Assembly (NCBI RefSeq): GCF_003752135.1
Contig: NZ_RJVK01000001.1
Coordinates: 186,001-250,000, forward strand
Reading direction: 5' to 3'
Length of the DNA stretch: 64,000 bases
Origin: Caminibacter pacificus
GTDB lineage: Bacteria; Campylobacterota; Campylobacteria; Campylobacterales; Nautiliaceae
This document shows, in pieces, positions 2,956-20,367 of this stretch. The translations under genes and the position numbers were made by a program. The notes under the pieces were generated by a model that saw only the letters and a program-made list of their open reading frames with translations, ran no database searches and was not told the DNA's origin. Each line of letters begins with the position of its first letter. Within the stretch, counting starts at the first letter, position 1.

Positions 2956-3714
2956 ATGAGAGAAAAGGTTGAGTCAGTTTTAAATGCTTTGATTTATACA
3001 TACTTAAAATTAAACAAACCAATAAGCTCAACCACTCTAAAAAATGAGGCCGATTTGCCGTATTCGGCATCGACAATCAGGAGTTATTTGCAAACTCTTG
3101 AAAAAAACGGCTTGGCACAAAAAGAGCATATCAGCAGCGGCTCTAAGCCGAGTGTTAAAGCTATGGTCGAGTTCTGGCAAGAGGTATTGCCGGGTAGAAT
3201 TGATGAATTTGATATTGACAATATCAAAAATAAATGTGAAGAGCTTGATATTTTCGCATACATTAAGATGTTTGACAATCAAATGTTAAATGAAGTTTAT
3301 AATTTTCATAATAAATTTATAATTATGGAATTTGAAAAAGATGAAGTCGTTTTGAGATATGACGAAAATTTATTCAATTTTCTTTACTCTTTAAGAGGTT
3401 TATATCTCAACGACATTCGAGATATTTTTAAAAAATACAAAATCGAAAATATAAAAAAACTTGATAATCTTTATGAATACATAACAATTAATCAAAAAAT
3501 ATTATATAATGTTTATAGCGAACCTGAAAAAAGCTTTTTCAAAAAACTTGAATCAAACGATTTAAGTGATATAATTAATTATGAAAAAGGCGCTTTAATT
3601 TATAAACTTCGCTCAAGCAGCTTCGATAAAACTATCGAAGCGGTGTTTGTGGCGGATGTTTATAGTAATTTTTTGGATTTGATTTCATCTATCAAAGGAG
3701 GGGAGAATGGCTAA
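2956..3714 (+). CDS. hrcA: Heat-inducible transcription repressor HrcA
   Basis: HrcA represses chaperone operons by binding CIRCE operators and is tuned by GroEL. This protein has 252 residues, short compared with about 340 in Firmicutes but close to the reduced Campylobacterota form. Residues 1-75 form a winged helix, including SASTIRSYLQTLEKNGLAQKE, the classical recognition region. The rest is a divergent GAF-like domain. The gene opens the operon and overlaps grpE by 8 bases. A perfect sigma70 promoter and a CIRCE-like half site lie directly upstream, consistent with self-repression. Confidence 0.88.
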   Translation: MREKVESVLNALIYTYLKLNKPISSTTLKNEADLPYSASTIRSYLQTLEKNGLAQKEHISSGSKPSVKAMVEFWQEVLPGRIDEFDIDNIKNKCEELDIFAYIKMFDNQMLNEVYNFHNKFIIMEFEKDEVVLRYDENLFNFLYSLRGLYLNDIRDIFKKYKIENIKKLDNLYEYITINQKILYNVYSEPEKSFFKKLESNDLSDIINYEKGALIYKLRSSSFDKTIEAVFVADVYSNFLDLISSIKGGENG

Positions 3715-4240
3715 AAAACACGAGCATAAAAAAAAGCCCCAAGAACATGAAGAAGTAAAACAAGAAAATCAAGAAATCGATATCGAAGCGCTTCAAAAAC
3801 AAAACGAAGAGCTTCAAAAGAAACTTGAAGAGTGTTTGAGGGCTTATGCTAAATGTGAGAATGATAAAAAAATTCTCAAAAAAGAGACCGATGCTATGGT
3901 CGATTATGCATATGAAAAATTTGCAAAAGACCTATTGCCGGTCGTAGATAGTTTGGAGTTGGCTATAGCTCATGCTAACGAACTTGAAAATAAAGAAGAA
4001 GCTTTTGATAAGCTTGTTGAGGGAGTGGAACTCACTCTCAAAAAAATGCTCGATACCTTTAAAAATCACGGAATCGAGCCGGTTGAACACGAAGAGTTCA
4101 ATCCTGAATATCACCAAGCTATCCAACATGTTCAAAGTGATGAGCATGAAGAGGGTGATATAGTGGATGTGTATCAAAAAGGATACACTCTAAAAGGCAA
4201 ATTAATAAGACCTTCAATGGTCACAATCAATAAAAAATAA
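3707..4240 (+). CDS. grpE: GrpE nucleotide exchange factor
   Basis: GrpE releases ADP from DnaK. The 177-residue protein shows the family layout: a charged, lysine- and glutamate-rich N-terminus, a long coiled coil over residues 25-85, then the beta domain with the signature GVELTLKKMLDTFKNHGIEPVE and the closing GYTLKGKLIRPSMVTI. It begins inside the last codons of hrcA (ATG at 3707) after a GGAGGGGAG ribosome-binding site, and dnaK follows 15 bases later. Function and context agree fully. Confidence 0.95.
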   Translation: MAKKHEHKKKPQEHEEVKQENQEIDIEALQKQNEELQKKLEECLRAYAKCENDKKILKKETDAMVDYAYEKFAKDLLPVVDSLELAIAHANELENKEEAFDKLVEGVELTLKKMLDTFKNHGIEPVEHEEFNPEYHQAIQHVQSDEHEEGDIVDVYQKGYTLKGKLIRPSMVTINKK

Positions 4241-4255
4241 TTTAAGGAGGGAAAA

Positions 4256-6136
4256 ATGGGAAGAGTAATAGGAATTGACTTAGGTACAACTAACTCAGCA
4301 ATGGCATATTATGACGGAAAAGACGCAAAAATAATTCCTAATAAAGAAGGTAAAAACACTACTCCATCAGTAGTGGCGTTTACTGATAAAGGTGTTTTAG
4401 TAGGTGAACCTGCTAAAAGACAAGCAATCACTAACCCTGAAAGAACAATCTATTCTGTAAAAAGAATTATGGGTATGATGTGTAATGAGCCGAAAGCTCA
4501 AGAAGCTAAAAAACACGTTCAATACAAAATCGTTGATAGAAACGGAGCGTGTGCTGTTGAGGTTGACGGAAAAGTATATACACCTCAAGAAATCAGTGCG
4601 AAAATTTTACAAAAATTAAAACAAGACGCTGAAGAGTTCTTCGGTGAAGAAGTAACTGAAGCTGTTATTACTGTACCTGCATATTTCAACGACGCACAAA
4701 GAAAAGCGACTCAAGAAGCAGGTAAAATCGCAGGACTTAACGTACTAAGAATTATCAACGAGCCGACAGCAGCTGCGCTTGCATACGGACTTGATAAAAA
4801 AGGTGAAGAAAAAGTACTTGTTTACGACCTTGGTGGTGGTACTTTCGACGTAACTGTTCTTGAAATTGGTGACGGTACTTTCCAAGTACTAGCAACTGAC
4901 GGTAACGCATTCCTTGGTGGGGACGACTTTGACAACAGAATCGTTCAATGGTTAATTGACGAATTCAAAGCTGAAACGGGAATCGATTTGAGCAACGATA
5001 AAATGGCTCTTCAAAGATTAAAAGACGCAGCTGAAACAGCTAAAAAAGAGTTATCAACAAAAGAAGAGACAGAAATTAACTTGCCGTTCATTACAGCGGA
5101 CGCAAGCGGACCAAAACACCTTGTTAAAAAACTAACAAGAGCGAAATTCGAAGCGATGATCGATGATTTATTACAAGAAACATTGACACACATCGATACT
5201 GCGCTTAAAGACGCAGGACTTAGCAAAGACGAAATCGATGAAATCGTAATGGTTGGTGGTTCGACAAGAATTCCAAAAGTACAACAATTGGTAAGTGATT
5301 ACTTTAACGGTAAAAAACTTAACAAATCTGTAAACCCTGACGAAGTGGTTGCACTTGGTGCGGCAATTCAAGCGGGAGTTCTTAAAGGTGACGTAAAAGA
5401 CGTATTATTGCTTGACGTTACACCATTAAGCCTCGGGATTGAAACTCTTGGTGGAGTTATGACAAAAATTATCGAAAAAGGTACGACAATACCTGTGAAA
5501 AAATCACAAGTATTCAGTACTGCTGAAGATAACCAAACAGCGGTTACAATTCACGTATTGCAAGGTGAAGCCGAACTTGCAAAAGATAACAAATCTTTAG
5601 GACAATTCAACCTTGAAGGTATCAGACCGGCACCAAGAGGAGTACCACAAATCGAAGTTACATTCGATATCGACGCAAACGGTATCTTAAACGTAACTGC
5701 AAGAGATAAAGATACAGGAAAAGAGCAAAAAATTACAATTACAGGAAGCTCGACTCTAAGTGAAGAAGAAATCGAAAAAATGATTAGAGAAGCTGAAGAA
5801 GCAAACAGAAGAGAAAAAGCGAGAATCGAAGCTATCAAAGCAAGAAACGAACTTGACGCGGTAGCGTATCAAGCTGAAAAATTCATCAAAGACAACAAAG
5901 ACAAACTTGGAGACGTAAGTGCTCTTGAAGCTAAAATTAAAGAAGCTAAAGAACTAATTGAGCAACAAAGTGAAGATAAAGCTAAAATCGAACAAGTTAA
6001 ATCTGAACTTGAATCAGAGCTTCAAAAAGCGGCTCAAAATATGGCGGCTCAAGGTGGAGCACAAGGCGGACAACAACAAAACCAAGGACAAAATAAAGGC
6101 GGAGACGACGACGTAATCGACGCGGAAGTAGAATAA
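4256..6136 (+). CDS. dnaK: Chaperone DnaK (Hsp70)
   Basis: DnaK is the ATP-driven Hsp70 chaperone. All landmarks are present over 626 residues: phosphate-1 loop [10 protein letters not shown] at the N-terminus, [13 protein letters not shown], the GGGTFDVT phosphate-2 loop, the adenosine motif [12 protein letters not shown], the linker [19 protein letters not shown], the substrate-binding domain, a helical lid, and a glycine/glutamine-rich tail ending [11 protein letters not shown] strong AAGGAGGG ribosome-binding site precedes the ATG. The stop codon lies in the loop of a terminator hairpin that ends the operon. Confidence 0.98.
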
Positions 6137-6151
6137 TCTTCCGCCTTTTTT
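6122..6151 (+). terminator. Terminator of the hrcA-grpE-dnaK operon
   Basis: GCGGAAG at 6122-6128 pairs with CTTCCGC at 6138-6144 across a 9-base loop, followed by a run of T at 6146-6151. The left arm is the last codons of dnaK and the stop codon sits in the loop. Confidence 0.8.
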
Positions 6152-6304
6152 GATTCCTTTTTTATTATCTTAAATATAGTGACAGACGCTAAGTATAAAA
6201 ATACCTTAAAACTCCTTTTATCTTTTTGTGTGTAGAAAATAAACATTTGTAAAAACTTCAAAAAAAATCTTCATTTTTGCTTCATAATTATAAAATCCTT
6301 GCTC

Positions 6305-6327
6305 TATAATATGAATGAGTAATCATT
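6305..6327 (+). promoter_or_regulatory. Probable promoter -10 box and dyad ahead of the coo operon
   Basis: A TATAAT at 6305-6310 lies 34 bases before the cooM start, with no clear -35 box. Directly behind it, where transcription should begin, lies a small dyad, AATGA-gtaa-TCATT (6314-6327). A repressor bound there would block initiation. I do not recognise the binding protein. The remaining leader (6152-6304) is AT-rich and shows nothing else I can support. Confidence 0.45.
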
Positions 6328-6343
6328 TAACGAAGGATGTAGA

Positions 6344-9300
6344 GTGGAGGGAATTGTATTATTATCATTGTTAATTATTTTATTCCTCAAAGTATTTGCC
6401 CTAATAAACGTCAAGCAAGTTAAAAAATCGTTTATTATCGCAAGTACTGCTGAGATTTTTTATTTAAGTTTAGCGTTTTTGGGTAGTTACGGTTTAAGTT
6501 CCGCTTTGTTACATATCGAGTATCAATTCGTTTTTAGAATGTTGGCGTTGCTTTTATTGTTTGAATTTATTTCATTTAAAAAAAGCGAGTTGTTAGAAGA
6601 TTTAAAAGGTGTGGCTTTTAATGTTTGGGGAGTTGTGTTCGGACTCGCTATTTTCGGAAGCTTGGGTGTTTCTTTGATTACTTCCAAGCAGCTTATTTTA
6701 AATACGTTTAGTGCGAACAATCTTTTTGACTTCGGTTATTTGGTGGTTGTTATAAACCTCATTCAAGCCATTTATTTAATTACGGTATTTGAAAATTTGG
6801 TTATCAAAAACGGAGAGAGTATCTCTTTTGTAAAAAACAAACTTTTGATTTTTCTATTTACTTTCGCTTCGATTTTGGTTTTCGTTTATCCTCAGTTGTA
6901 TCTAATTTTGCCTCAAAGCTTTAGCGATATAAAAACATTTCATATTTCTTTCTCTTTTGATACGGGTGGTATAAGACTTCTTTTTGGAGGATTATTCGGT
7001 TTTATTATGCTAATGGTCTTTTTATATTCTTTAGATTACATCAAAAGAAATAAAATTTTTTACTATTTTGCATTGGCGGTATTGACGATAAGTTTGATAG
7101 AAGTTGCTTTTAGCGATACTTTTGAGAGTTTTTATCTATTTTGGGAGCTTATGACTATTTCTTCATATCTTCTTATTATGCATTCAAGAAGCGATAAATC
7201 AATAGGAGCCGCTAAAATATACTTTTTAATGTGTATTGCCGGGGCTTATTTATTGCAACTGACTTTTTCATATTTTTATACTCACGGAATTGAGAGTTTT
7301 AGCGAAATCAAAACTATAAATATCACTTTAGCCGTTTTGTTGTTATTGGGATTCGGAGTGAAAGCAGGTATTGTACCGTTGCATAAATGGTTACCAATAG
7401 CCCATCCCGAAGCTCCGAGCAGTATTTCGGCACCTTTGTCCGGTATTTTAACTAAAGCCGGAATTTTCGGGATTATTTTAACTATTTATCTTTTTAAATT
7501 TAACAATGAAATTTTTTCATATTTAGTTATATTTTTAGGGCTAATCACTCTTTTATATGGTGAAATCAAAACTTTATACGAAACAGATTTGAAAAGATTA
7601 TTGGCTTATTCGACAATAGGTCAAATAGGTGAAATTATTACCGTTTTGGGATTGATGAGTTTAAGTGCCTTAAGTGCTGCATTATATCATATAATCAATC
7701 ATGCAGTCGTAAAAGATTTATTATTCTTAAGTGCGGGAATTTTGATATTAAGTGCAGGAAGTAGAAATCTTGAAGATTTAAAAGGTATAGGTAAAAAAAT
7801 GCCGTTTTTGGCGTTTCCGTTGGGAGTGGGGATTTTTGCGATTAGTGCTTTTCCTCCTTTTGGAAATTTCAATTCGAAGTTTTTAATGGTTTATTCTTCA
7901 ATGAATGCTCATAATTATGTCGTGGCATTCGGGCTGGTTATAGGTGCGATAATCGGATTTATCGGTATGCTTAGAGTCTTTAAATATATCTTTTTATTTA
8001 ATCCTCACAGAGATTTCGAAGAAGTAAAAGGTATAAAAGTTTTCGTAACTTACTTTTTAGCTATTATATCTTTTATTCTCGGTATTTTTCCAAACGAAGT
8101 AATGAGCTTTATTAACAGTTCTATTTTTTATACTTTTCATCAAAAAGTGCAGTTAATTCCTTTTGTTTTGCATATTCCGTTTAGTGTATCGATAATGATA
8201 CTTGGAGCTTTTGTTGTCTTTTTCTTCGCTAAAAAAAGCGTTCATGCCGGAATTTTGTCAGCTTTATTTTCATTCTTAGCATTAATAGAACTTTCTTTTC
8301 ATAAATTTTCATTCGGAATCTTTTTTGCGATTCTCGTTGTGTTTATGGCTATCTTGAATTTTATCTATGCTGCAAGATATATGGATCATTCCCACAAACC
8401 GTATAGATTTTTCGCTAATTTTATTATTATGATCGTAGGAATTTTAGGAGTCGTACTTTCTAAAGATATTTATAATATGTTCTTCTTCTGGGAAATTATG
8501 GGCGGATGGGCATTGTATTTAGCCCTTGTACATGAAGAAGATGACTACTCAATAAGAGAAGCGAGTAAATATTTGATTTACAATTACGCGGGTGCCGGTA
8601 TATTAATGATAGGTTTTAGCATTCTTTTAAATTACGGTATCGAGCTTAGCTTATTAAAAAATCTAACTTTAAATGCAACATTAACGTTTGCGGTAATTCT
8701 TTTAACTATCGGATTTTTAATGAAAGCGGCTCAATTGCCTATTAGGATCGATTATCAAATGCACCCGAAACCTGCGCCTACTCCTATTAGCGGTTATATA
8801 TCTTCGGTTATGTTAAAAACAGGACCTTTTATGCTTGTCAAAGTTTTTTATATGCTGATTGCAACCGGTCTATTGATAAATATTTTAACAATTAACGATA
8901 TAGCGCATATTGCTGCTATTATCGGTGTCGTAACGATTATAATGGGTGCTGCTTTCGGATTGCTTACCAACTCTATGAAAAGATTACTAATATTTTTAAC
9001 CGTTGCCGAGATAGGTTATATAGTGGCCGGTGTTTCTCTTTTAACTAACGAAGGGCTTGCGGGAGGTCTTTTACATCTTGTTAATCATATGTTTTTTAAA
9101 GATTTGCTTTTCTTGAGTGCTGGGGCTATTTTTTATAAAACGGGTATTGATAATTTAAACGAACTCGGAGGAATTGCTAAAAAAATGCCTATTACTTTCG
9201 GAGTATTTATGGTCGCCGTATTTTCAACCGCGGGTGTTCCTATGTTTAGCGGGTTTGTTTCAAAATGGATAATTTATCATGCTTTAATGGCGAAAGGTTA

Positions 9301-9820
9301 TGTTTTTTTAGCAATACTTACCCTTCTTGGAAGTATTATGGTCTTGCTTGTTTTCGTTAAATTTATGCATAGTGCGTATCTTGGTAAGAGTGATGAAAAA
9401 AGAATAGAAAAAGTTGATTTTTATATGGCGGTGCCTATGGTATTGCTTGCGTTTTTAAATATTTTATTAGGAATATTCCCGTATGTAATGCTAAAACCTA
9501 TAAACTTCATATTGACTCAATTCGGATTAAAAGAGATTTTGATTACTCCAAGCTCAATTACTCTTGGAAATGACGTATTAAATACGTTTTCGCTTGCAGT
9601 GTTTATCATTTTGGGATTAGTTGTTGCGGTAAGTATGTATCTTTTCAAAAAAAGAGTGAGAACAACTCATATATTCCTTTCGGGAGTTAGAGATTTAAGT
9701 AAAAAAGATCTTCATATTAAAGCGGATAGTTTTTATGAAAGCGTTACCGAGCTTATTTTAAAAATAATCTATTACACTAAAAAAGTGTTCGGATTAAAAG
9801 GAGGATACGTTGAGCGCTGA
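6344..9820 (+). CDS. cooM: CooM-type fused membrane subunit of group 4 hydrogenase (two NuoL-like modules)
   Basis: This 1158-residue, almost wholly membrane-embedded protein holds two antiporter-like (Proton_antipo_M) modules in tandem. The first has the TM5 glutamate in LFWELMT (about residue 266), the lysine in GVKAGIVPLHKW and the AHPEAPSS block near 350. The second has FFWEIMGGW (about 716), FLMKAAQLPIR and the matching PKPAPTPISG block near 800, but has lost the HKW element. Conserved SK pairs occur in the late helices of both (NSKF, VSKW). Such a double-module protein is CooM, the ion-pumping subunit of CO-induced hydrogenase. The start is GTG at 6344 after GAAGGA. It heads a 12-gene operon and overlaps cooK by 11 bases. 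Confidence 0.88.
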   Translation: MEGIVLLSLLIILFLKVFALINVKQVKKSFIIASTAEIFYLSLAFLGSYGLSSALLHIEYQFVFRMLALLLLFEFISFKKSELLEDLKGVAFNVWGVVFGLAIFGSLGVSLITSKQLILNTFSANNLFDFGYLVVVINLIQAIYLITVFENLVIKNGESISFVKNKLLIFLFTFASILVFVYPQLYLILPQSFSDIKTFHISFSFDTGGIRLLFGGLFGFIMLMVFLYSLDYIKRNKIFYYFALAVLTISLIEVAFSDTFESFYLFWELMTISSYLLIMHSRSDKSIGAAKIYFLMCIAGAYLLQLTFSYFYTHGIESFSEIKTINITLAVLLLLGFGVKAGIVPLHKWLPIAHPEAPSSISAPLSGILTKAGIFGIILTIYLFKFNNEIFSYLVIFLGLITLLYGEIKTLYETDLKRLLAYSTIGQIGEIITVLGLMSLSALSAALYHIINHAVVKDLLFLSAGILILSAGSRNLEDLKGIGKKMPFLAFPLGVGIFAISAFPPFGNFNSKFLMVYSSMNAHNYVVAFGLVIGAIIGFIGMLRVFKYIFLFNPHRDFEEVKGIKVFVTYFLAIISFILGIFPNEVMSFINSSIFYTFHQKVQLIPFVLHIPFSVSIMILGAFVVFFFAKKSVHAGILSALFSFLALIELSFHKFSFGIFFAILVVFMAILNFIYAARYMDHSHKPYRFFANFIIMIVGILGVVLSKDIYNMFFFWEIMGGWALYLALVHEEDDYSIREASKYLIYNYAGAGILMIGFSILLNYGIELSLLKNLTLNATLTFAVILLTIGFLMKAAQLPIRIDYQMHPKPAPTPISGYISSVMLKTGPFMLVKVFYMLIATGLLINILTINDIAHIAAIIGVVTIIMGAAFGLLTNSMKRLLIFLTVAEIGYIVAGVSLLTNEGLAGGLLHLVNHMFFKDLLFLSAGAIFYKTGIDNLNELGGIAKKMPITFGVFMVAVFSTAGVPMFSGFVSKWIIYHALMAKGYVFLAILTLLGSIMVLLVFVKFMHSAYLGKSDEKRIEKVDFYMAVPMVLLAFLNILLGIFPYVMLKPINFILTQFGLKEILITPSSITLGNDVLNTFSLAVFIILGLVVAVSMYLFKKRVRTTHIFLSGVRDLSKKDLHIKADSFYESVTELILKIIYYTKKVFGLKGGYVER

Positions 9821-10769
9821 AATCATTCATTTTTTAATTTTTCCGGGCGGTTTATTCGCACTTGTGCTCGGAATTTTTATGTTATCGCTTGAGAGAATAG
9901 TGGTAGCGAGATTACAAGGAAGAGTGGGGCCTCCTATTTATCAAAATTTTATTGATGTTATTAAGCTGTTTAACAAAGAAATTTTAGTACCTAAAGATTC
10001 CAAAGAGATTGTGTTTATGTATGCTCCGGTATTAGGCTTTGCCGCGTTGATTGCAATGCTTTATTTCATACCTTTGCCCGGTGTATATGAAGGAGCGGGG
10101 AATAATTCGGATTTGATTATTCTAATTTACGTTATGGCTTTACCGGCGATTTCTCATATTTTAGGAGGAAGCGCTTCGAGTTCACCTTATGCCGCTATTG
10201 CCGTAAATAGAGAGTTGAAATTAATGCTTGTATATGAGGTGGTGTTTGTAATTATAGCTTTTAGTATAGCTCTTTATGTAGGAAAAGGGAGTGCCGTTTT
10301 ATCGTTAAAAGATATTATGAATTATCAATTAAACAACTCTCCTTTAATTTTGGATTGGAAGTTTTGGCCTGCGATAGTGGCTTTTGTAATTTTCGTATTG
10401 GCAACTATGGAGTTTCCTCCTTTTCAAGTTGCTCATCATAACGACGCGGACGTAATGGACGGGTTTTTGATTGAACACAGTTCGATTCCTCTTGCGATAT
10501 ATGAAATGACCGATGCTTTAAAAATCGTACTTTTAAGTATCGTTTTTCAAATTTTCTTTTGTCCGTGCGTTATAGGAGGCGATGTTGTTGTCAACTTACT
10601 CTTTTTTATCGCTAAAACGGTTATTTTCGTAATGTTTTTTTCATTGCTTCATGCGATTTTCGCAAGTTTTAGAATAGATCAAGCGTTTAAATTTTTGATT
10701 ATCGTACCTACGACATTGAGCTTAATAACTCTTGTTTTGGTTATTTTGTCAATAAAAGGATTAATATGA
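9810..10769 (+). CDS. cooK: CooK, NuoH-like membrane anchor of the hydrogenase
   Basis: CooK corresponds to NuoH/complex I ND1, the subunit joining the hydrophilic hydrogenase arm to the membrane arm. The 319 residues contain about eight helices and the family signature ERIVVARLQGRVGPP near residue 30, plus the acidic loop around EFPPFQVAHHNDADVMDGFLIEHS. The TTG start at 9810 lies after an AGGAGGA and inside the end of cooM. It overlaps cooL by 4 bases. The order M-K-L-X-U-H is the same as in Rhodospirillum rubrum. Confidence 0.9.
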   Translation: MSAEIIHFLIFPGGLFALVLGIFMLSLERIVVARLQGRVGPPIYQNFIDVIKLFNKEILVPKDSKEIVFMYAPVLGFAALIAMLYFIPLPGVYEGAGNNSDLIILIYVMALPAISHILGGSASSSPYAAIAVNRELKLMLVYEVVFVIIAFSIALYVGKGSAVLSLKDIMNYQLNNSPLILDWKFWPAIVAFVIFVLATMEFPPFQVAHHNDADVMDGFLIEHSSIPLAIYEMTDALKIVLLSIVFQIFFCPCVIGGDVVVNLLFFIAKTVIFVMFFSLLHAIFASFRIDQAFKFLIIVPTTLSLITLVLVILSIKGLI

Positions 10770-11194
10770 GTATTATTACCAGAAGTCCGTTTTTATTCAG
10801 GATAAATACAGGTAGTTGTAATGGATGTGACGTAGAGCTTGCTACTACGGCCATGATACCGAGATACGATGTCGAAAGACTCGGATGCAGATATACGGGG
10901 AGTCCTAAACATGCCGACATTTTGCTTGTGACGGGACCGATAACCGCCAGAAGTAAACCTTATTTGATTGAGGTATTGGATGAACTGCCAAGACCGTTTG
11001 TTGTCGTTGCTATAGGAACTTGTCCGACAAGTTGCGGTATTTTTAGAGATTCTTATTCTATTGAAGGCCCTCTTGATAAATATGTTGAAGTGGATGTAAA
11101 CGTTCCGGGGTGTCCTCCAAGACCTCAAGCGATTATCGACGGAGTGGCAAAAGCACTTGAAATTTGGAAAAGAAAAATAAGGGATTTCAAATGA
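10766..11194 (+). CDS. cooL: CooL, small subunit of group 4 NiFe hydrogenase
   Basis: This is the NuoB-like electron-transfer subunit that holds the proximal 4Fe-4S cluster. Over 142 residues the four cluster cysteines are visible: SCNGCDVE (residues 15-20), GTCPTSCG and PGCPPRPQ. The proline-rich GCPPRPQAI ending is typical of the family. It carries no Tat signal, as expected for a cytoplasmic-facing Ech/Coo type enzyme. The start overlaps the end of cooK, and its stop overlaps the ATG of cooX. Confidence 0.93.
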   Translation: MSIITRSPFLFRINTGSCNGCDVELATTAMIPRYDVERLGCRYTGSPKHADILLVTGPITARSKPYLIEVLDELPRPFVVVAIGTCPTSCGIFRDSYSIEGPLDKYVEVDVNVPGCPPRPQAIIDGVAKALEIWKRKIRDFK

Positions 11195-11706
11195 GCGGAT
11201 TTTTAAAAATTGCAATAAGAAACCTTTTAAAAGGTCCTACAACCGATCCGTATCCTTTCGGAGATACTTTTATTCCTCAGAAGTTAAGAGGTAAATTAAA
11301 AGTTGACGCTTCGGAATGTACGGCATGTAGAACGTGCGAGGAAGTCTGTCCCTCAGGTGCGATAAAAATTACTAAAAATGAAGGAGCTTACGTACATACG
11401 ACCTGGTATAACACTTGTTGTTTTTGCGGTAACTGTGAATTTTTTTGTCCTACGGGTGCGATAAAACTCACCACCGATTTTCACACGGCACATTTTCAAG
11501 ATGAAAAATATTCTTTCGTCACAGTTGCCGTAATAAAAGAGACGGAGTGCAAGAACTGCAAAACAAAATTCGTACCTCCGAGTGAGGCGCTTTTAAAAAG
11601 AGCTTATAACGGTATTGATATAGATTTGGACGAATTAAAACTTTATTGTCCGGAATGTAGAAAAAAAATAGCTTTTGAAAGGTTGCATTTATGGTTGAGA
11701 CATTAA
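11191..11706 (+). CDS. cooX: CooX, two-cluster ferredoxin subunit of the hydrogenase
   Basis: CooX resembles NuoI and relays electrons between the hydrogenase core and ferredoxin. Two 4Fe-4S motifs are clear: CTACRTCEEVCP and CCFCGNCEFFCP. A further CKNC...CPEC set near the C-terminus probably binds zinc or another metal. I place the start at ATG 11191, in an ATGA overlap with the cooL stop and with AAGGGA upstream; an earlier in-frame ATG at 11164 would add an unlikely 9-residue extension inside cooL. The product is 171 residues. It overlaps cooU by 16 bases. Confidence 0.9.
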   Translation: MSGFLKIAIRNLLKGPTTDPYPFGDTFIPQKLRGKLKVDASECTACRTCEEVCPSGAIKITKNEGAYVHTTWYNTCCFCGNCEFFCPTGAIKLTTDFHTAHFQDEKYSFVTVAVIKETECKNCKTKFVPPSEALLKRAYNGIDIDLDELKLYCPECRKKIAFERLHLWLRH

Positions 11707-12200
11707 AAAGAAAAGTAAAAAGCGAAATAAAAGAACGAATAGAAAAGTTTGATTTAAAAGAAGAAAAAGACGAAAAAGGCAATATTCAGCTTTGGCTGAA
11801 AATTGATAAAAAAGATATAGTGCATATGGCACAGATAATAAAAGATTTCGGGGGAAGATGCGTAATTATTAGTGCATATACGAACGATGAAGTTCCTGTA
11901 CTCGTTTATCATTTCGACATAGACGGAATGCTTGTAAACGTAGAAATAAAACTGCCTGATAACAAAGTAGAATCCATAACTCCTATTTTACAATCCGCAA
12001 ATTGGGCCGAGAGAGAATTCAAAGAGATGTACGGTATCGAATTAATAGGTCATCCTAATCCTAAAAGATTATTTTTGGATGAAAGCATTGCTGAAGGAAT
12101 ATTAAAAGAATATATGCCTCTCTCACAAGCGATGAACGGAGCGGCTACGTGTTGTATGTGGGAGAGAGTAGAAGCACAAAGGCATAACGATGAGTACTAA
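11691..12200 (+). CDS. cooU: CooU, NuoC-like subunit of the hydrogenase
   Basis: The 169-residue protein matches the 30-kDa complex I subunit family (NuoC), which docks on the large subunit. The family motif appears as ANWAEREFKEMYGIELIGHPNP, followed by KRLFLDE. The N-terminal 40 residues are highly charged and helical. It overlaps cooX by 16 bases and cooH by 11 bases, so all three are translationally coupled. It has no catalytic residues; its role is structural within the soluble arm. Confidence 0.9.
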   Translation: MVETLKRKVKSEIKERIEKFDLKEEKDEKGNIQLWLKIDKKDIVHMAQIIKDFGGRCVIISAYTNDEVPVLVYHFDIDGMLVNVEIKLPDNKVESITPILQSANWAEREFKEMYGIELIGHPNPKRLFLDESIAEGILKEYMPLSQAMNGAATCCMWERVEAQRHNDEY

Positions 12201-13269
12201 AATACCTATAGGACCGTTTCATATAGGACTTGAAGAACCTATATATTTTAAAATAGATTTAAAAGGGGAAACGGTAGTAAATGTAGATATGATAAACGGT
12301 TTTGTTCATAGAGGTATAGAATATCTTGTGATGCAAAAAAACTTTTTTCAAAACTTGATTTTAACTGAAAGAGTATGTGCTTTATGTTCGAACAATCACC
12401 CTTTTACTTACGTAATGGCTGTTGAGAAGATAGCGGGAATCGAAGTGAGTAGAAGAGCTAATTATTTAAGAGTTGTAGCGGATGAAGTAAAACGTGTAGC
12501 TTCTCATATGTTCAATTTATCGATGCTTGCGCACCTAATAGGTTTTCATTCTTTAATGACCCAAACTATGGAAGCAAGAGAAATTATGCAAGACGTTAAA
12601 GAGTCTATTTGGGGAAATAGAATGGATATGAGCGCCAATACTTTAAGCGGTGTTAAATATGATTTGGACGAAGGGCAAATCGAGTTTATTTTGAATAAAT
12701 TAGATGAGCTTGAAAAACAAACGGATGAATTGATAGATATCTATTTTAATAATAAATTGGTAAAAGCAAGAACCGTTAATGTCGGTGTTTTACCAAAAGA
12801 AGACGCGCTCAGACTCGGAGTGACGGGTCCGACTGCCAGAGGTAGCGGAGTTAATAACGACGTAAGAGTTAAAGCTCCTTATGCTGCGTATGACGAACTA
12901 AAACCTACCGTGATGTTAGAAGAGAACGGAGATGTTTATTCTCGTATGAAAGTAAGATGGAGGGAGGTAAAAGAATCTATCAGGCTTATAAGAAAAGCGC
13001 TAAACAATCTTCCGGAAGGTCCGGTTGTTACGCAAAAAAGACCTCATATTCCCGCAGGGGAAGCTGTTACAAGAACCGAAGCTCCAAGAGGAGAGCTTAT
13101 TTATTATCTAAAAACAAACGGAACACAAAGACCTCAAAGAATGCGCTGGAGAGTCCCTACTTATATGAATTGGGAAGCGTTAAGAGTGATGATTCCGGGT
13201 AATAAACTAAGTGATGTTGCGGTTATTTTTAACAGTATCGATCCTTGTATTTCATGTACGGAACGCTAA
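12190..13269 (+). CDS. cooH: CooH, NiFe catalytic large subunit of group 4 hydrogenase
   Basis: CooH carries the NiFe centre for reversible H2 oxidation. Both nickel-binding cysteine pairs are intact: ERVCALCSNNH near residue 62 and DPCISCTER at the very end. That separates it from NuoD, which has lost them. The protein (359 residues) ends two residues after the last CxxC-T, so no C-terminal peptide has to be removed by a maturation protease; R. rubrum CooH is known for the same trait. The catalytic arginine region (GPTARGSG) and RGELIYYL are present. A 32-base gap leads to the CooF-like gene. Confidence 0.94.
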   Translation: MSTKIPIGPFHIGLEEPIYFKIDLKGETVVNVDMINGFVHRGIEYLVMQKNFFQNLILTERVCALCSNNHPFTYVMAVEKIAGIEVSRRANYLRVVADEVKRVASHMFNLSMLAHLIGFHSLMTQTMEAREIMQDVKESIWGNRMDMSANTLSGVKYDLDEGQIEFILNKLDELEKQTDELIDIYFNNKLVKARTVNVGVLPKEDALRLGVTGPTARGSGVNNDVRVKAPYAAYDELKPTVMLEENGDVYSRMKVRWREVKESIRLIRKALNNLPEGPVVTQKRPHIPAGEAVTRTEAPRGELIYYLKTNGTQRPQRMRWRVPTYMNWEALRVMIPGNKLSDVAVIFNSIDPCISCTER

Positions 13270-13301
13270 ATATTTCAATTTAAATAAAAAAAGGAGAGTA
13301 A

Positions 13302-13820
13302 ATGGCTAATAAGTTTATATTTGCGGATGCTACTAAATGTATAGGATGTCTCAATTGCGAACTTGCGTGTGCGGCGAGTCATATGGGAGTGGATTTGGAA
13401 CAAGCTTATGAAATGGGACTTAAAGGTATGGAGCTTATACATAGAAATACAGTATTGAAAGTTGCGAATTTAACAGCACCTATGCAATGTATGCAGTGTG
13501 AGGATGCTCCGTGCGTTAAAGCATGTCCGATCGATATTATTAAATACGAAAACAATTACGTAAAAATATACGAAGAAGATTGTATCGGGTGTAGAAGCTG
13601 TGCTATCGTATGTCCTTTCGGTGCTATAGTTATGGCAAAAAGCGAATCTCAAAACGTTTCGGGACTTGTAGCCTTGAAATGCGACTTATGCGGAGGCGTT
13701 GAAGGAGAGCAGGCATGTGTAAATGTTTGTCCTACGGATGCTCTTGAACTAATAGATTACGACGAATATAAAATAAGAAAACAAAAAGCGGCATTTGAGA
13801 GACTAAACCAACATGCATGA
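13302..13820 (+). CDS. cooF: CooF-like polyferredoxin (four 4Fe-4S clusters)
   Basis: The 172-residue protein has four cysteine sets: CIGCLNCELAC, CMQCEDAPCVKAC, CIGCRSCAIVC and CDLC...CVNVC. The opening FIFADATKCIGCLNCELACAAS is close to CooF, which in R. rubrum carries electrons from CO dehydrogenase to the Coo hydrogenase. No CO dehydrogenase gene is in this window, so here it more likely exchanges electrons with soluble ferredoxin or with the GltD-like flavoprotein two genes downstream. HydN/HycB-type proteins are the closest alternative. AAAGGAG precedes the ATG, and the end overlaps hypA by 8 bases. Confidence 0.82.
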   Translation: MANKFIFADATKCIGCLNCELACAASHMGVDLEQAYEMGLKGMELIHRNTVLKVANLTAPMQCMQCEDAPCVKACPIDIIKYENNYVKIYEEDCIGCRSCAIVCPFGAIVMAKSESQNVSGLVALKCDLCGGVEGEQACVNVCPTDALELIDYDEYKIRKQKAAFERLNQHA

Positions 13821-14148
13821 ACTATCAATCATTCAATCGATGATGAAAATAGTTGAAAAAGCGAGTAACGGTAAAGAAGTAGAAAAAATTGTAGTCAAAA
13901 TAGGGAAAATGAGTGGAGTCGAGCCCTATTTTTTGAAAGAGAGCTTTGATGTTTTTAAAGAAAACACTGTTTGTAAAAACGCCGAAATGGAGATTGTTGA
14001 GGTGGATATAAAGATTGAATGTTACTCTTGCGGAGAAATTAGCAAGGTTGAAGGATTCGATTTTAGATGTCCTAAATGTCAAAGCGGAAAAACCAAAATA
14101 ATTTCCGGCGAAGAATTATATATAGACTATATTGAGATAAAGGAGTAA
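13813..14148 (+). CDS. hypA: Hydrogenase nickel insertion protein HypA
   Basis: HypA, with HypB, delivers nickel to the hydrogenase large subunit. The 111-residue protein starts MHELSI, with His2 as the known nickel ligand. It has the zinc-binding pairs CYSC and CPKC about 19 residues apart and the family's GKMSGVEPYFL segment. Placing a hypA copy inside the coo operon suggests a dedicated maturation partner for CooH. The other hyp genes are not in the window. It is followed by the GltD-like gene after 2 bases. Confidence 0.93.
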   Translation: MHELSIIQSMMKIVEKASNGKEVEKIVVKIGKMSGVEPYFLKESFDVFKENTVCKNAEMEIVEVDIKIECYSCGEISKVEGFDFRCPKCQSGKTKIISGEELYIDYIEIKE

Positions 14149-14150
14149 AA

Positions 14151-15572
14151 ATGAAAAAGCATTATAGAGTTATTCCAAGAAAAATCCAAAGAAAAAGAGA
14201 ACCTCATGAAAGAGTAAAAGATTTCGAACCGGTATATCATGAATTTACCCCTGAAGAAGCTATTGAACAGGCGAAAAGATGTATTACGTGCCCTATTGAT
14301 ATTTTGAGAGGACTTGAGAGTGAGTTTAGTTTTTGTAGAACGGGATGTCCTTTAAATAACTATATTCCTCAATGGATTAGGGAATATAGAAACGGTAATT
14401 TACAAAAAGCTTTCGAACTTAGTAATGAAACTTCTCCTTTTCCTGAAATTTTGGGAAGAATTTGTCCTCATGATAATCTTTGTCAAGGAGCGTGTACTAT
14501 TGCAAAAACCGAGCACGGTAGCGTTACAATCGGAGCTATTGAAGTATTTATCAGCGAAGAAGGTTTTAAACAAGGACTGAAACCTTATTATGGAGAGGAT
14601 AAAAAAAGAAAAAAAAGAGTGGCGATTATCGGTAGCGGTCCTGCCGGAATGAGTTGCGCTACTTTTCTTTTAAGAGGCGGTGTAAACGTTGAAATTTTTG
14701 AAAAATCGGATAGACCAGGAGGTCTTTTAACTTATGGTATTCCTAATTTCAAACTCCATAAAGACGTTGTATTTAGAAGATTTGAGTGGATGAAAGAGGC
14801 AGGATTGAAACTCCATTTGAATCATCCTATCTTAACTGAAGAAGAATTTGAAAAATTAGTAAACGAGTTTGATGCGGTATTTATCGGAGTGGGTGCTCCA
14901 AGCGGTAGGGGTGCGAGAATGGAAAACGAAGACGCAAACGGTGTTTATCATGTAATGGATGTACTCACACATGCTCAAAAAAGAGTATTTAAAGATTTTG
15001 ACGATTGCATTTTAAAAGATAAAAGAGTAGTGGTACTTGGGGGTGGAGATAGTGCGATGGATGCAGTCAGAACCGCTATTAGAAGCGGTGCTAAGGAAGT
15101 GACTTGCGTTTATAGAAGAGACGAAGCTAATATGCCGGGAAGTAAAAAAGAGGTTATTAACGCAAAAGAAGAGGGTGTTAAATTTATGTTTTATACCGCT
15201 CCTAAAGCCGTAAAAGTCGATGAAAACAAAAACGTTATAGGAATCGTTTGTCAAAAAACGGAGCTCGGAGAGCCGGATAGTAGCGGTAGAAGAAGAGTTC
15301 AGGTGGTTGAAGGAAGCGATTTTGAAATTCCTTGTGATATAATTATCTTAGCACTCGGATTTGATAACGTGAAGTTTCCTTGGTACGAACATGCCGGTAT
15401 TGAAACGGATAAGTGGGGGTGTCCGATTGTTAATGATAAAAAACAGACCACTAATCCGAAAGTGTATGCCGGCGGAGATGCCGTAAGAGGCGCCGATTTG
15501 GTAGTTACCGCCGCAAGAGACGGTAGAGACGCCGCTTATGCGATATTAGAACAATTCGGATTAAAGGATTAA
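14151..15572 (+). CDS. gltD: GltD-like NADPH-dependent FAD/iron-sulphur oxidoreductase
   Basis: This 473-residue protein has the glutamate synthase small-subunit architecture. An N-terminal double 4Fe-4S domain shows cysteines in [14 protein letters not shown] and [14 protein letters not shown]. An FAD Rossmann site ([10 protein letters not shown], about residue 160) and an NADPH Rossmann site ([19 protein letters not shown], about 300) follow, with [12 protein letters not shown] typical of NADPH preference. It could be the beta subunit of glutamate synthase, but no large subunit (GltB) is near. It lies 2 bases after hypA and 2 bases before the fumarate reductase genes, so I infer that it may feed NADPH or ferredoxin electrons to one of those enzymes. 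Homologues also act as NfnB/SudA-type electron bifurcation or transfer subunits. Confidence 0.8.
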
Positions 15573-15574
15573 AA

Positions 15575-17281
15575 ATGGTGGCTGTTTATAAAAGTGATGT
15601 TGTTATAGTAGGAGCGGGGCTTGCTGGGCTTGCAGCCGCAAGAGAGCTCGTAAAAAACGGTAAAACCGTAACGGTTTTGACAAAACTTCATCCTTTACGT
15701 TCCCACTCCGGAGCCGCTCAAGGCGGTATCAACGCCGCACTCGCGGATGACGACGATGTTGAACTTCATATTTTCGATACTATCAAAGGTAGTGATTATT
15801 TAGCCGACCAAGACGCTGTCGAGCTTATGTGTGAAAAAGCACCTGAGACGATTAGATGGATTGAGAGAATGGGTGCCGTTTTCAGTAGAAGAGAAGACGG
15901 TCGAATCGCACAAAGGCCGTTTGGTGGGCAAAGCAGACCAAGAGCATGTTTTGCAAAAGACAGAACGGGACTAACCCTACTTCAAACTATGTACGAACAG
16001 TGTGTTAGAGAAAACGTTTTGATGCTTGATGAATGGTATGTGGCTGATGTGTTATATGACGGAAAGAAAGCTTATGGAGTAGTGGCATATAATCTAAGAG
16101 ATATGACTCCTGCTATCTTTAATGCAAAAGCCGTAATGTTCGCGACGGGAGGATATGCAAGAGCTTTTAAAATCAACTCAAACGCTCATGCGAATACGGG
16201 AGACGGACTTTCAATATTGGCAAGAAGAGGTATTCCTCTTGAAGATATGGAATTCGTACAGTTTCACCCTACGGGACTTGCCGGAAGCGGTATTTTAATG
16301 AGTGAAGCGGCAAGAGGAGAAGGCGGTAGGCTGTTTAATAGAAACGGTGAAAGATTTATGGAAAAATATGCTCCGGAAAAAATGGAACTTGCGCCGCGTG
16401 ATGTTGTAAGTAGAGCTATTATGAAAGAAATTATTGAAGGAAGAGGTGCAACAGAAGATCCTTTTGCCGTATATCTCGATCTGACGCACTTAGGAGAAAA
16501 GAAAATCAACGAAAGACTTCCCGAACTTAGAGATTTGGCACTGACTTTCTTAGGGCGTGATATGGTAAAAGAGCCAATTTTAATCTCAGCAACCGCTCAC
16601 TATTCGATGGGTGGAATTCCTGTTGATATTAACGGACACGTAAAAAAATCTCCTAACGAACTTACAGAAGGACTTTATGCTGCCGGTGAGTGTGCTTGTG
16701 TGAGTGTGCACGGAGCAAATAGGCTTGGAGCGAACTCGTTGCTTGAAGCTCTGTTTTACGGAAGATGGGTAGGAAATTCTATATTAAAAGACCTTGATTC
16801 GTTGAGTTTTAAAGAAGCTAAGCCGGATGAAGCGGTGGTGATGCTTGATGAAGTAGAAAAACTTTTGAATTCTAACGGCGATGAAAGAGTCTCACAAATA
16901 AGAAACGAATTGCAAGAGACAATGACGACTAAAGTAGGTGTTTTTAGAGAAGAAAAGACTATGATAGAGGCCAAAAATAAACTTAAAGAGTTAAGAGAGA
17001 GATTCAAACATATAAAACTTGACGATAAAAGCAAAATGTATAATACCGACCTACAAGAAGCTATAGAACTCGGGCATATGCTCGATTACGCACTATTTAT
17101 CGTCGAAGGGGCTATTAACAGAAAAGAATCAAGAGGAGCTCATTATAGAGAAGATTATCCGAAAAGAGACGACAAAAATTATTTAAAACATACTTTCGGA
17201 TATTTAAAAGGTGATGATATTGAAATTGAATACGGCGATGTGAAAATCACCAAATACGAGCCTCAAGAGAGAAAATATTAA
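15575..17281 (+). CDS. frdA: Fumarate reductase/succinate dehydrogenase flavoprotein subunit, cytoplasmic type
   Basis: The 568-residue flavoprotein interconverts fumarate and succinate. An FAD Rossmann motif ([12 protein letters not shown]) begins near residue 10. The covalent-FAD histidine lies in [16 protein letters not shown], and catalytic segments [22 protein letters not shown] and [10 protein letters not shown] are intact. There is no Tat signal or other leader, unlike the periplasm-facing MfrA of Wolinella, so the enzyme should sit in the cytoplasm. It is followed by iron-sulphur and HdrB-like subunits rather than a cytochrome b anchor. The gene lies in a tight run after the GltD-like gene. 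In an autotroph of this type it would serve the reductive TCA cycle. Confidence 0.9.
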
Positions 17282-17291
17282 AGGATAAGCT

Positions 17292-18263
17292 ATGGAAGTT
17301 ACGTTTAAAGTATATAGATTTAATCCCGAATTTGACGATAAACCTCATTATGACGAATATAAACTCGAAATGGGTGAAGATAGTGTGATTTTGGACGCTT
17401 TGAATAAAATAAAATGGGAAATAGACGGCAGTTTGAGTTATAGGAGAAGTTGTAGACACGGTATTTGCGGAAGTTGTGCGATAAAACTTAACGGCAAAAA
17501 CGTACTTGCGTGTAAAACTCCTATAAAAGAAGCTGTGGAGCAGTTCGGTAATGTTTTGATTGTGGAACCTTTAAGTAAGAAAAAAGAAAAAGTTATAAAA
17601 GATTTAGTAATCGATAAAAAAGATTTTTGGGATAAAAACGCAAAAGTTAAGCCGTATCTGATAGCGGAAATAGACGAACATCCGACAAGTGAAAATCTGA
17701 TTCCTCCTAAACTCGTGGAGTTATTGGAAGATGCGGATTATTGTATTGCTTGCGGTTGCTGTTATTATACGTGCGAGACGATACGAGGCGGTGATACGGA
17801 GTTTTTAGGACCTCAGGCTCTTGCTAAAACTTATAGATTTACCGCTGATGTAAGAGATGAAGCTAAAAAAGAGAGATTGGAACTTGTAAACGAGCTTGGT
17901 ATCGGGGTTTGGGATTGTGTTAAATGTCAGGGTTGTATTGAGGTGTGTCCTAAAGGAGTCGATCCGTTTACTAAAATTACACATTTACATAATCAAATCT
18001 TTGAGGAGGGAGTCGCTAAGAAAAACGTAGCTACTAAACACGCCGAAGGATTCGTTCATTCGATTAAAAAACACGGAATTTTGGATGAGGGAATGCTTGT
18101 ATTATATAGTGAAGGCGTAAACGTAGTAAGACATCTTCCGGAAGCTATAGCAATGTTTGCGAAAGGAAAAATTAAACTTCCTTGGCAAATGCCGAAAAGT
18201 AAAGGTTTGGATGAAATTCAAAAACTTATAGAAATTTCTCAAACTCATGAGTTAAAGGATTGA
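17292..18263 (+). CDS. frdB: Fumarate reductase iron-sulphur subunit
   Basis: The 323-residue protein begins with a plant-type 2Fe-2S ferredoxin domain: SCRHGICGSCAIKLNGK and then LACKT near residues 55-80. It continues with two cluster motifs, CIACGCCYYTC (about 153) and CVKCQGCIEVCPKGVDPF (about 215). It is longer than classical FrdB/SdhB (about 240), with roughly 80 extra C-terminal residues. Long forms occur in the SdhABE/Mfr/Tfr class, where the next partner is an HdrB-like protein, as seen here. An AAAGGA site and short spacing link it to frdA. No heme-binding anchor gene is nearby. Confidence 0.9.
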   Translation: MEVTFKVYRFNPEFDDKPHYDEYKLEMGEDSVILDALNKIKWEIDGSLSYRRSCRHGICGSCAIKLNGKNVLACKTPIKEAVEQFGNVLIVEPLSKKKEKVIKDLVIDKKDFWDKNAKVKPYLIAEIDEHPTSENLIPPKLVELLEDADYCIACGCCYYTCETIRGGDTEFLGPQALAKTYRFTADVRDEAKKERLELVNELGIGVWDCVKCQGCIEVCPKGVDPFTKITHLHNQIFEEGVAKKNVATKHAEGFVHSIKKHGILDEGMLVLYSEGVNVVRHLPEAIAMFAKGKIKLPWQMPKSKGLDEIQKLIEISQTHELKD

Positions 18264-18265
18264 TT

Positions 18266-19123
18266 ATGAAATACGCTTTATATACGGGATGTACTGCAAA
18301 AGAGTCGACACCCGAGCTTTTGAAATCGACTCTTGAAGTGGCTAAAGTTTTGGGGATTGAAATTGAGATTTTGGAAGAAGCGAGTTGTTGTGGGGCGAGT
18401 CATTTACAAGATTTTGACGAATTTTTAGCTTATGTATTAAATGCAAGAAATATATGTTTAGCGGAAAAAAGAGGTTTAAAATTAGTGACGTTATGCAATA
18501 CTTGTCAGCTGATGCTTGAAAACACAAAAAGAAAACTCGATAGTGATGAAGAGTTTAGAGAAAAAGTAAATGAAAAATTAAAAGAAGTAGGATACGAATA
18601 TAAAGGAACGAGTAAAGTTCAGCACTTTTTATATGCAATTTTGGAAGATATCGGTCTTGAAGAGATTTCAAAACATGTAAAAAAACCGCTTAATTCCAAA
18701 GTTGCACCTTTTTACGGCTGCCATATAATCAGACCATCAAAAACTCATGACGGAGACAATTTAAACGAAAATCCGTACAAACCTGACGCGATTGAGAGTT
18801 TGATAAAAGTTTTATTAGGGGTACCTGTTGATTATGAGAGTAAAATCAAGTGCTGCGGATTTCATGTCGATTTGCAAAACACCGAACTTAGTGAAAACTT
18901 AACGGCAAATGCGTTACTTGATGCAAATGAAAACGGTGCCGAAATGATAGTTACGCCTTGTCCTTTGTGTCATTTGAATCTTGATGTAAAACAAAAAGCG
19001 GCGGCTAAAAAAGTAAACAAAAACTTAAAAATGCCGGTATTGCATTTACCTCAATTGTTAGGTTTGGCTTTTGGAATAGATAAAGAAAAGTTAGGATTAA
19101 ACCATCATATTATCCCTCTTTGA
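18266..19123 (+). CDS. HdrB-like CCG-domain subunit (SdhE/MfrE type)
   Basis: This 285-residue protein has two cysteine-rich CCG domains. The first holds ASCCGAS and, later, TLCNTC; the second holds KCCGFHVDL and TPCPLCHLNLD. In heterodisulphide reductase HdrB such domains bind an unusual non-cubane 4Fe-4S cluster. In E-type succinate or fumarate enzymes (SdhE, MfrE) an HdrB-like protein takes the place of a membrane cytochrome. I prefer ATG 18266 (six bases after AAAGGA) over an in-frame TTG at 18260. It ends the long operon; its stop codon sits in a hairpin loop. The electron partner (quinone, thiol or the GltD-like protein) is open. Confidence 0.85.
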   Translation: MKYALYTGCTAKESTPELLKSTLEVAKVLGIEIEILEEASCCGASHLQDFDEFLAYVLNARNICLAEKRGLKLVTLCNTCQLMLENTKRKLDSDEEFREKVNEKLKEVGYEYKGTSKVQHFLYAILEDIGLEEISKHVKKPLNSKVAPFYGCHIIRPSKTHDGDNLNENPYKPDAIESLIKVLLGVPVDYESKIKCCGFHVDLQNTELSENLTANALLDANENGAEMIVTPCPLCHLNLDVKQKAAAKKVNKNLKMPVLHLPQLLGLAFGIDKEKLGLNHHIIPL

Positions 19124-19133
19124 TTGAGGGGTA
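19111..19133 (+). terminator. Hairpin at the end of the coo-frd operon
   Basis: TATCCCTC at 19111-19118 pairs with GAGGGGTA at 19126-19133 (8 bp, one G-U) around a 7-base loop that contains the stop codon. There is no T run after it, so it may stabilise the mRNA 3' end or act with Rho rather than be an intrinsic terminator. Confidence 0.4.
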
Positions 19134-19161: not shown

Positions 19162-20157
19162 TTAAAGTTTTTTAGCGATGTCGTTGATTGCTCTGTATGC
19201 GTGGTTGAATGCAAGAGCGATACTTCCTTGGCTTGTTACGACATCACCGATTGTGTAAAGACCTTCAACGTTTGTTTCCATTGTCTCTTCGTTGTATTCA
19301 GGCTCACCCCATTCATTTAGATTGATTCCGCAGTTTTTAAGGAAATCAACTGGGCTTGTTCCACCAAGAGCATAAACTACTCTATCGAAAATTTCACTTG
19401 TTCCGTCTTTGTAGTTTACTTTTACTTTGTAATCTCCGTCAACTTCTACAGCTTCTACGTTTTCGATATCTACACCGAGTCTTGAATGGATTTTTCCTTC
19501 TTTGATGTATCTTTCAACGATTTCTTTGTTTGTAGGGTTCATTCTGATAATTTCAGGTCTTCTGTAGTTAAGAGTTACGTCACATCCGATATCCATATCT
19601 ACAAGTCCGTATGCATATTCACCCGCAGTATCACCACCACCTACAACAAGTACTTTTTCACCAGGTTGTACTTTATCAAGGTTGAAGTTTAATCTTTTTC
19701 TGATTTTAGGAGGGAATTTATATGCTGGTTTATTTGGTTTACCCATTCTTCCGATTGCTACGATAACTTTTTTAGCTTGGATTACTCCAAGTTCATGGTC
19801 CGCACCGATTTCGAAAATTCCGTCACCGTTTTTTTCTACTCCGTAAACGTGGTGATTGTATTTGAATTTATCCGCTACACCTGCGTCTTGGATTTTTTTC
19901 TCCATTTGTTCAAGGTATTCTTCTTTGCTGCACTCTTCGAAAGTTACGTTACCTTCGAATTCGAATTTTTTACCTTGCCAATCTTTATCAACTCTTTTTC
20001 CCGGTTTGTAGAATTTTCTAATCATATCGCTGTGATTGTCAGCTTTTTCAAGAACGATAACTTTATCTATTCCTTTTAATTTAGCTTCGATAGTGCTTGC
20101 GATTCCTCCAGGACCCGCACCGATAATTGCAATGTCAAACACTTTATCCAGGCTCAT
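19162..20157 (-). CDS. NAD(P)/FAD-dependent oxidoreductase, thioredoxin reductase-like
   Basis: The 331-residue flavoprotein has an FAD motif (IIGAGPGGIASTIEA) near the N-terminus and an NAD(P) motif (LVVGGGDTAGEYAYGL) near the middle, then a second FAD segment (GLYTIGDVV) at the end. There is no CxxC redox pair, so it is not a classical thioredoxin reductase. It resembles YpdA/ferredoxin-NADP reductase type enzymes. It is transcribed against the neighbouring operons. The start is ATG at 20157, behind AAAGGAG; an upstream in-frame start at 20202 lacks a ribosome-binding site. Substrate is unknown. Its length and domain order fit ferredoxin- or bacillithiol-type reductases, so a link to redox balance is plausible only. 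Confidence 0.75.
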   Translation of the reverse strand: MSLDKVFDIAIIGAGPGGIASTIEAKLKGIDKVIVLEKADNHSDMIRKFYKPGKRVDKDWQGKKFEFEGNVTFEECSKEEYLEQMEKKIQDAGVADKFKYNHHVYGVEKNGDGIFEIGADHELGVIQAKKVIVAIGRMGKPNKPAYKFPPKIRKRLNFNLDKVQPGEKVLVVGGGDTAGEYAYGLVDMDIGCDVTLNYRRPEIIRMNPTNKEIVERYIKEGKIHSRLGVDIENVEAVEVDGDYKVKVNYKDGTSEIFDRVVYALGGTSPVDFLKNCGINLNEWGEPEYNEETMETNVEGLYTIGDVVTSQGSIALAFNHAYRAINDIAKKL

Positions 20158-20367
20158 TAAAGCTCCTTTTTTATTTGAATTATAACTTAGTAAGTTAATC
20201 AATAAAACCTTAGGAGTGAAAAATGGCTTTTAAGCGTGTAAATTTGTAACAAAATTTCATTAAAAAGAGAGAAAGGGTTTAAAAAATGAACGAATATTCA
20301 TTGATAATTCGAGATTTTTGTTATTATTTGAATAATTTGATAAAATATACATTAAAAAAGGAATTCG

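Follow-up and report, generated by a model that had tools for sequence, protein, structure and literature searches.

We analysed a window of 64,000 nucleotides (G000:C1:186001-250000) from a 1.86 Mb Nautiliaceae genome, in which twelve plus-strand genes, cooM-K-L-X-U-H-F-hypA-gltD-frdA-frdB-frdE, lie in a row at positions 6344-19123 and join a Coo-type [NiFe] hydrogenase to a GltD-like NADPH flavoprotein and a fumarate reductase with an HdrB-like subunit. The row is preceded by dnaK (4256-6136) and followed by a convergent reductase gene on the minus strand (19162-20202). All twelve open reading frames of the families named in a preliminary description were present, and family searches bore out every identity. 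The hydrogenase genes are cooM (6344-9820), encoding a protein of 1158 aa with two fused antiporter-like (Proton_antipo_M) modules (PF00361 in two stretches, 2.6e-93); cooK (9810-10769), for a NuoH-like membrane subunit (PF00146, 1.2e-53); cooL (10766-11194), for the small, NuoB-like [NiFe]-hydrogenase subunit (PF01058, 1.4e-27); cooX (11191-11706, its start corrected to the ATG at 11191), for a NuoI-like polyferredoxin (Fer4 in two stretches, closest models HycF and NuoI); cooU (11691-12200), for a NuoC-like 30 kDa subunit (PF00329, 3.9e-20); and cooH (12190-13269), for the large [NiFe] subunit (PF00346/PF00374). They are followed by cooF (13302-13820), for a 4Fe-4S electron-transfer protein of the HydN/AegA N-terminal type (NCBIfam AegA residues 2-156, 1.9e-37), hypA (13813-14148), for nickel insertion (TIGR00100, over cut-off), and the gene for the GltD-like flavoprotein (14151-15572; TIGR01318, over cut-off). 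The row ends with frdA (15575-17281), for the fumarate reductase/succinate dehydrogenase flavoprotein (TIGR01812, 791 bits against a cut-off of 567), frdB (17292-18263), for the iron-sulfur subunit (TIGR00384 and PRK05950 over cut-off; Fer2_3 and Fer4_8), and frdE (18266-19123), for an HdrB/SdhE-like protein with two CCG domains (PF02754 in two stretches; TIGR03288 at 234 bits, below cut-off), whose start is probably the ATG at 18266 and not the TTG at 18260.

The genes are as tightly packed as had been described, with overlaps or gaps of at most 32 bases: in row order the intergenic gaps are -11, -4, -4, -16, -11, +32, -8, +2, +2, +10 and +2 nt. The absence of terminators between genes likewise held, as a terminator scan called no site in any gap and its plus-strand matches within the row were all intragenic. 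The proposal of one operon-like unit containing a Coo-type hydrogenase and an NADPH flavoprotein is supported. The hairpin reported after the last gene does exist as a short plus-strand stem (19111-19133, 8 bp by eye), but it is weak: it overlaps the frdE stop codon, lacks a T run and is not called by the scan. A possible promoter (TTCATA-18-TATAAT, 6281-6310, plus strand) 34 nt 5' of cooM is a match to the consensus only, and promoter-like matches in the region did not exceed the count in shuffled sequence.

The preliminary description had proposed checking whether the whole order is conserved in the family, and we compared 21 Nautiliaceae genomes, including a high-quality subset of 12 (completeness of 90% or more, contamination no higher than 5%). 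Row-type CooH, GltD and FrdA co-occur in seven of the 21 (G000, G015, G033, G048, G062, G088 and G128) and are found in none of the others; within the high-quality subset, seven genomes have all three parts and five (G075, G101, G113, G120 and G124) have none. In all seven row-bearing genomes the genes form an unbroken run with one common order and near-identical gaps, except that G015 is without cooM and cooK, and the proteins of the six other genomes are 59-95% identical to those of G000. Between gltD and frdA there are always 1-2 nt; the one gap whose length varies widely is cooH-cooF (12-63 nt). Recurrence of this order in six further genomes shows that the row is more than chance. Since two genera contain both row-bearing and row-free genomes, the row behaves as a block, which is gained or lost as such within Nautiliaceae. 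The genome has another hypA at G000:C1:87128-87460; the row copy travels only with the coo genes.

Outside the family the parts come apart. Among 120 genomes sampled evenly across the order, with FrdA counted as present at 61% identity or more, FrdA of the row type occurred in 81, joined to Coo in six and unjoined in 75; the latter all belong to other families, and their FrdA is 61-78% identical to that of the row. The hydrogenase and fumarate reductase halves are thus freely separated beyond Nautiliaceae, whereas gain and loss as a block holds within it. Hydrogenase-linked GltD was found in 14 of the 120 genomes, and a group 4 hydrogenase lies beside it in all 14, of Coo type in 13 and of Hyf/formate-hydrogenlyase type in one (G091, L103). 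FrdABE is joined on in only six of these 14, the sampled row-bearing Nautiliaceae, and another six have no row-type FrdABE at all (five with Coo-type hydrogenases, all of one genus, plus G091). In G023, Coo-GltD and FrdABE are on different contigs. In G009, frd lies about 6 kb before the gltD cluster with three unrelated genes between, genes that come after frd in G018 and G023 too; these intervening genes rule out a repeat of the Nautiliaceae join. A Sulfurovum metagenome-assembled genome (MAG; L010) has a hydrogenase-linked GltD beside a formate dehydrogenase-HydN-Hyf cluster. As GltD in the order sample is beside a hydrogenase throughout and Frd is mostly unjoined, GltD tracks the hydrogenase and its ferredoxin, with Frd an optional addition.

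The GltD-like protein itself points the same way. In a tree of 37 GltD proteins, the hydrogenase-linked members form a single clade (100/100) apart from nine glutamate-synthase-type GltDs of Campylobacterota, eight of which are adjoined by a GltB-size gene. In all 18 distinct hydrogenase-linked sequences, the first Fe-S motif is extended between C2 and C3 by about 11 residues (CxxCP[IV]..(~11)..FCR.GCPL), an insert found in none of the aligned GltB-linked, AegA or more distant GltD sequences. In structures of GltD and dihydropyrimidine dehydrogenase, the loop at this position carries the cluster turned towards the partner subunit, and from the position of the insert a change of partner is plausible for the hydrogenase-linked GltD. 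An intact NADPH-type Rossmann motif with YRRDE is present. On the strength of the separate clade, the insert and the adjacency to hydrogenases, we assigned the GltD-like protein to the hydrogenase module. CooF corresponds to one half of E. coli AegA and GltD to the other, and AegA/YgfT, in which a CooF/HydN-type ferredoxin and a GltD domain are like the row pair but fused, provides a natural precedent for CooF-GltD contact. A GltD-like gene also follows the hydrogenase gene in group A2 [FeFe] hydrogenases (PMC5037454), whose catalytic subunit is unrelated.

The CooMKLXUH gene set is complete and in Coo order. CooH has both CxxC Ni ligand pairs (RVCALCSNNH and the DPCISCTER end), and its nearest solved chain is that of an archaeal membrane-bound hydrogenase (6cfw_L); CooM keeps both antiporter modules, and ion translocation is predicted from its sequence. 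The module resembles the CO-induced CooMKLXUH(F) hydrogenase of, for example, Rhodospirillum rubrum and Carboxydothermus in subunit set, gene order, the fused double antiporter CooM, the adjacent CooF and a CooH without C-terminal extension. It differs in that the operon holds a GltD-like flavoprotein and hypA and the genome has no CO dehydrogenase; indeed, CooS (TIGR01702) exceeded its cut-off in none of the 21 Nautiliaceae genomes, and a CO-linked function was rejected on this ground. Linkage to CooS is a trait of the carboxydotrophic model species and not a requirement of the Coo enzyme type.

Clusters that keep GltD without CooMK occur in G015, G023, G009, a Hydrogenimonas-like genome (L009) and Sulfurospirillum (L011 and L098), and the hydrogenases they encode would be soluble and linked to NADP. 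The Ech-like hydrogenase of Sulfurospirillum multivorans (PMC5357620) belongs here: Sulfurospirillum genomes have an orthologous CooL-X-U-H-F-HypA-GltD cluster, differing from the row in being without membrane subunits and frd. The available text of that paper calls the missing membrane subunits remarkable and does not discuss the GltD neighbour. The diagnostic GltD clade offers an explanation for such 'Ech-like' hydrogenases in Sulfurospirillum and Hydrogenimonas-like genomes, which, if it is true, would be soluble, NADP-linked relatives of an ion pump. The G015 row, in which cooL is directly preceded by a prolyl-tRNA synthetase gene (L089 9769-12042), may be a natural soluble form within Nautiliaceae. 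Its CooH groups with the soluble forms (95/97) and its CooF with Nautiliaceae (83/87); this may reflect a swap of CooLXUH for a soluble-type relative, but the branches are long, the outgroup is very distant and the pairwise identities do not favour it. In several clusters without membrane subunits (L097:8365-8664, L009:6358-6657 and L092:17516-17797), a small Cys-containing protein of 93-99 aa is encoded directly 5' of a fused cooL-cooX; it was not seen in Sulfurospirillum or G015.

FrdABE of the row has the HdrB-type (type E) composition of other Campylobacterota fumarate reductases (SdhE/FrdE), that is FrdA, FrdB and an HdrB-like subunit with two CCG domains, and differs from them in its place behind gltD. 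The FAD motif of FrdA begins at residue 8, with no signal peptide and no room for a Tat signal. Scores under the NCBIfam equivalog cut-offs led us to reject both an 8-methylmenaquinol:fumarate reductase (497.8 against 1100, 151 against 600 and 228.7 against 500 bits), whose SdhA is moreover exported, and a CoM/CoB-dependent TfrAB (473 against 718 and 144 against 385 bits for TfrA and TfrB). Judging from relatives, quinol is the likely electron donor; an NADH-linked, HdrB-containing fumarate reductase, with an NADH-binding subunit in the complex, is known from Hydrogenobacter. A second fumarate reductase, with 52% FrdA identity, is present in all 12 high-quality Nautiliaceae genomes, row-free ones included, so that the row enzyme is not the sole route to succinate. 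In G000 this second locus (L100, G000:C2:60000-79000, at 3309-11490) comprises frdA, frdB, an HdrB-like gene and an extra frdB-like gene, and it lies near truD-like and thiL-like genes, where other Campylobacterota have their FrdABE (L096, L099). Apparently, the common FrdABE has been relocated from this truD/thiL-like site to the coo row.

The preliminary description knew of no account of such a joined cluster, and in this it was wrong. Both the coo-frd join and the NADPH idea are already published. The Nautilia profundicola genome paper (Campbell et al. 2009, PMC2628731) places coo at GAmH_1032-1026 and frd at GAmH_1023-1021, and the legend of its Fig. S2 announces the rgy, coo and fdr neighbourhoods in N. 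profundicola and C. mediatlanticus. It gives the latter CooLH without a full operon, a pattern that fits G015, although that G015 is C. mediatlanticus is a guess. For Nautilia sp. PV-1 (PMC10092268, 2022), NADPH production was proposed for Hyd-3 and ferredoxin was assigned to Hyd-2. The N. profundicola coo/fdr region (G062) and PV-1 Hyd-3 (G048) are the same cluster as our row; in G062 the places of coo, gltD, frd and gltB agree with the N. profundicola locus numbers. In the PV-1 proteome, Hyd-3 and its 'NADPH-binding subunit' were co-expressed and Hyd-3 was up at high pressure, where almost all rTCA (reductive tricarboxylic acid) enzymes were not; one subunit of pyruvate:ferredoxin oxidoreductase and one of succinate dehydrogenase (RS05350) departed from this. 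RS05350 belongs to the coo-frd cluster, and co-expression of the Hyd-3 and Frd halves is weakly supported by these data. In their available text, neither paper considers the row and Frd as a single unit or parts GltD from glutamate synthase by phylogeny.

Taken together, we favour with moderate confidence an operon, probably read as a single transcript, of two functional modules. The first, cooMKLXUH-cooF-hypA-gltD, would be an ion-translocating H2:NADP+ oxidoreductase, in which electrons would pass from H2 through CooH/CooL, CooX and CooF to the GltD-like flavoprotein and on to NADP+. CooM and CooK would exchange ions with the membrane gradient, so that NADPH could be made despite scarce H2, or the gradient charged when H2 is plentiful. 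With standard potentials of -414 mV for H2 and -320 mV for NADP+, the transfer runs downhill when H2 is high; when H2 is low it comes close to equilibrium, and an ion gradient would then be of help. The second module, frdABE, would be the cytoplasmic fumarate reductase of HdrB type that Campylobacterota usually have, presumably fed by menaquinol, and its place behind gltD would let the fumarate step of the rTCA cycle be made together with H2-driven reductant, without electron flow between the modules. It is thus clearer which parts of the row belong together, Frd being a passenger. NADPH supply in H2-fed rTCA autotrophs is unsettled, and a dedicated hydrogenase-NADPH module would, if true, answer that question; PMC2628731 found no obvious NADPH source and proposed a partial complex I running in reverse.

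Several points weigh against the two-module operon. A Sulfurovum MAG (L012, 9968-11419) has a GltD of the hydrogenase-linked type with no hydrogenase within 10 kb. CooF-GltD contact is suggested by gene neighbourhood and the AegA fusion, and the GltD half of AegA falls outside the hydrogenase-linked clade, without the insert and grouping with gammaproteobacterial GltD. We found no biochemistry on the row proteins in the literature. Moreover, the tight gltD-frdA junction leaves room for a closer link to Frd, and GltD might serve the lone GltB of the genome, as PMC2628731 assumed.

The last of these amounts to an alternative that we regard as unlikely, namely that the GltD-like protein is the small subunit of an NADPH glutamate synthase, displaced from gltB and unrelated to the hydrogenase. 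It exceeds the cut-off for a GltD family, these genomes have no other full GltD, GltB is full length, and PMC2628731 lists GAmH_1024 as glutamate synthase paired with GAmH_1535. GltB stands alone at G000:C2:449934, away from the row GltD, and gltD adjoined gltB in none of three Nautiliaceae genomes looked at. However, besides its separate clade and insert, four genomes (G009, G020, G023 and G078) carry both a hydrogenase-linked GltD and a second one of the GltB-linked clade, and Nautiliaceae without row-type GltD keep GltB. A 57%-complete MAG of the family (L127, G130:C63:1-8000) differs from all other Nautiliaceae genomes searched in having an ordinary gltB-gltD pair; this may be contamination or a true exception.

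A shade less probable again is that the main task of the hydrogenase is to supply CO2 fixation with reduced ferredoxin via CooF, with GltD as a side branch keeping ferredoxin and NADPH in balance. CooF is indeed the usual ferredoxin-like partner of Coo enzymes, and PMC2628731 assigns ferredoxin coupling to its group 4 enzymes. Yet GltD is constant even where CooMK is missing and ion-driven ferredoxin reduction is impossible, a separate Ech hydrogenase is a candidate for that role, and the PV-1 authors divided ferredoxin and NADPH between Hyd-2 and Hyd-3 as above.

The route put forward in the preliminary description, one electron path from H2 through ferredoxin or NADPH to fumarate, was not supported and appears improbable; in such a path GltD or CooF would feed FrdAB via the HdrB-like subunit. 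Inheritance as a block, the conserved gltD-frdA junction and the precedent of the NADH-linked Hydrogenobacter enzyme speak for it. Against it stand the 75 genomes with unjoined FrdABE of the same family, Sulfurospirillum with Coo-GltD and no such FrdABE, G023 with both unlinked, and the lack in the row of any gene for an extra NAD(P)H-binding Frd subunit. Co-assembly of GltD and FrdABE with the membrane-bound Coo hydrogenase into an rTCA-dedicated complex passing H2 electrons directly to NADP+ and fumarate, which would make it a new H2:NADP+/fumarate oxidoreductase, is the least credible reading.

Beyond the row, the convergent gene at 19162-20202 encodes a thioredoxin-reductase/YpdA-like flavoprotein, possibly a ferredoxin/flavodoxin-NADP reductase. 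Such a gene seems to adjoin the row in G015 and G128 as well, judging from weak GltD matches, and lies far from it in N. profundicola and PV-1.

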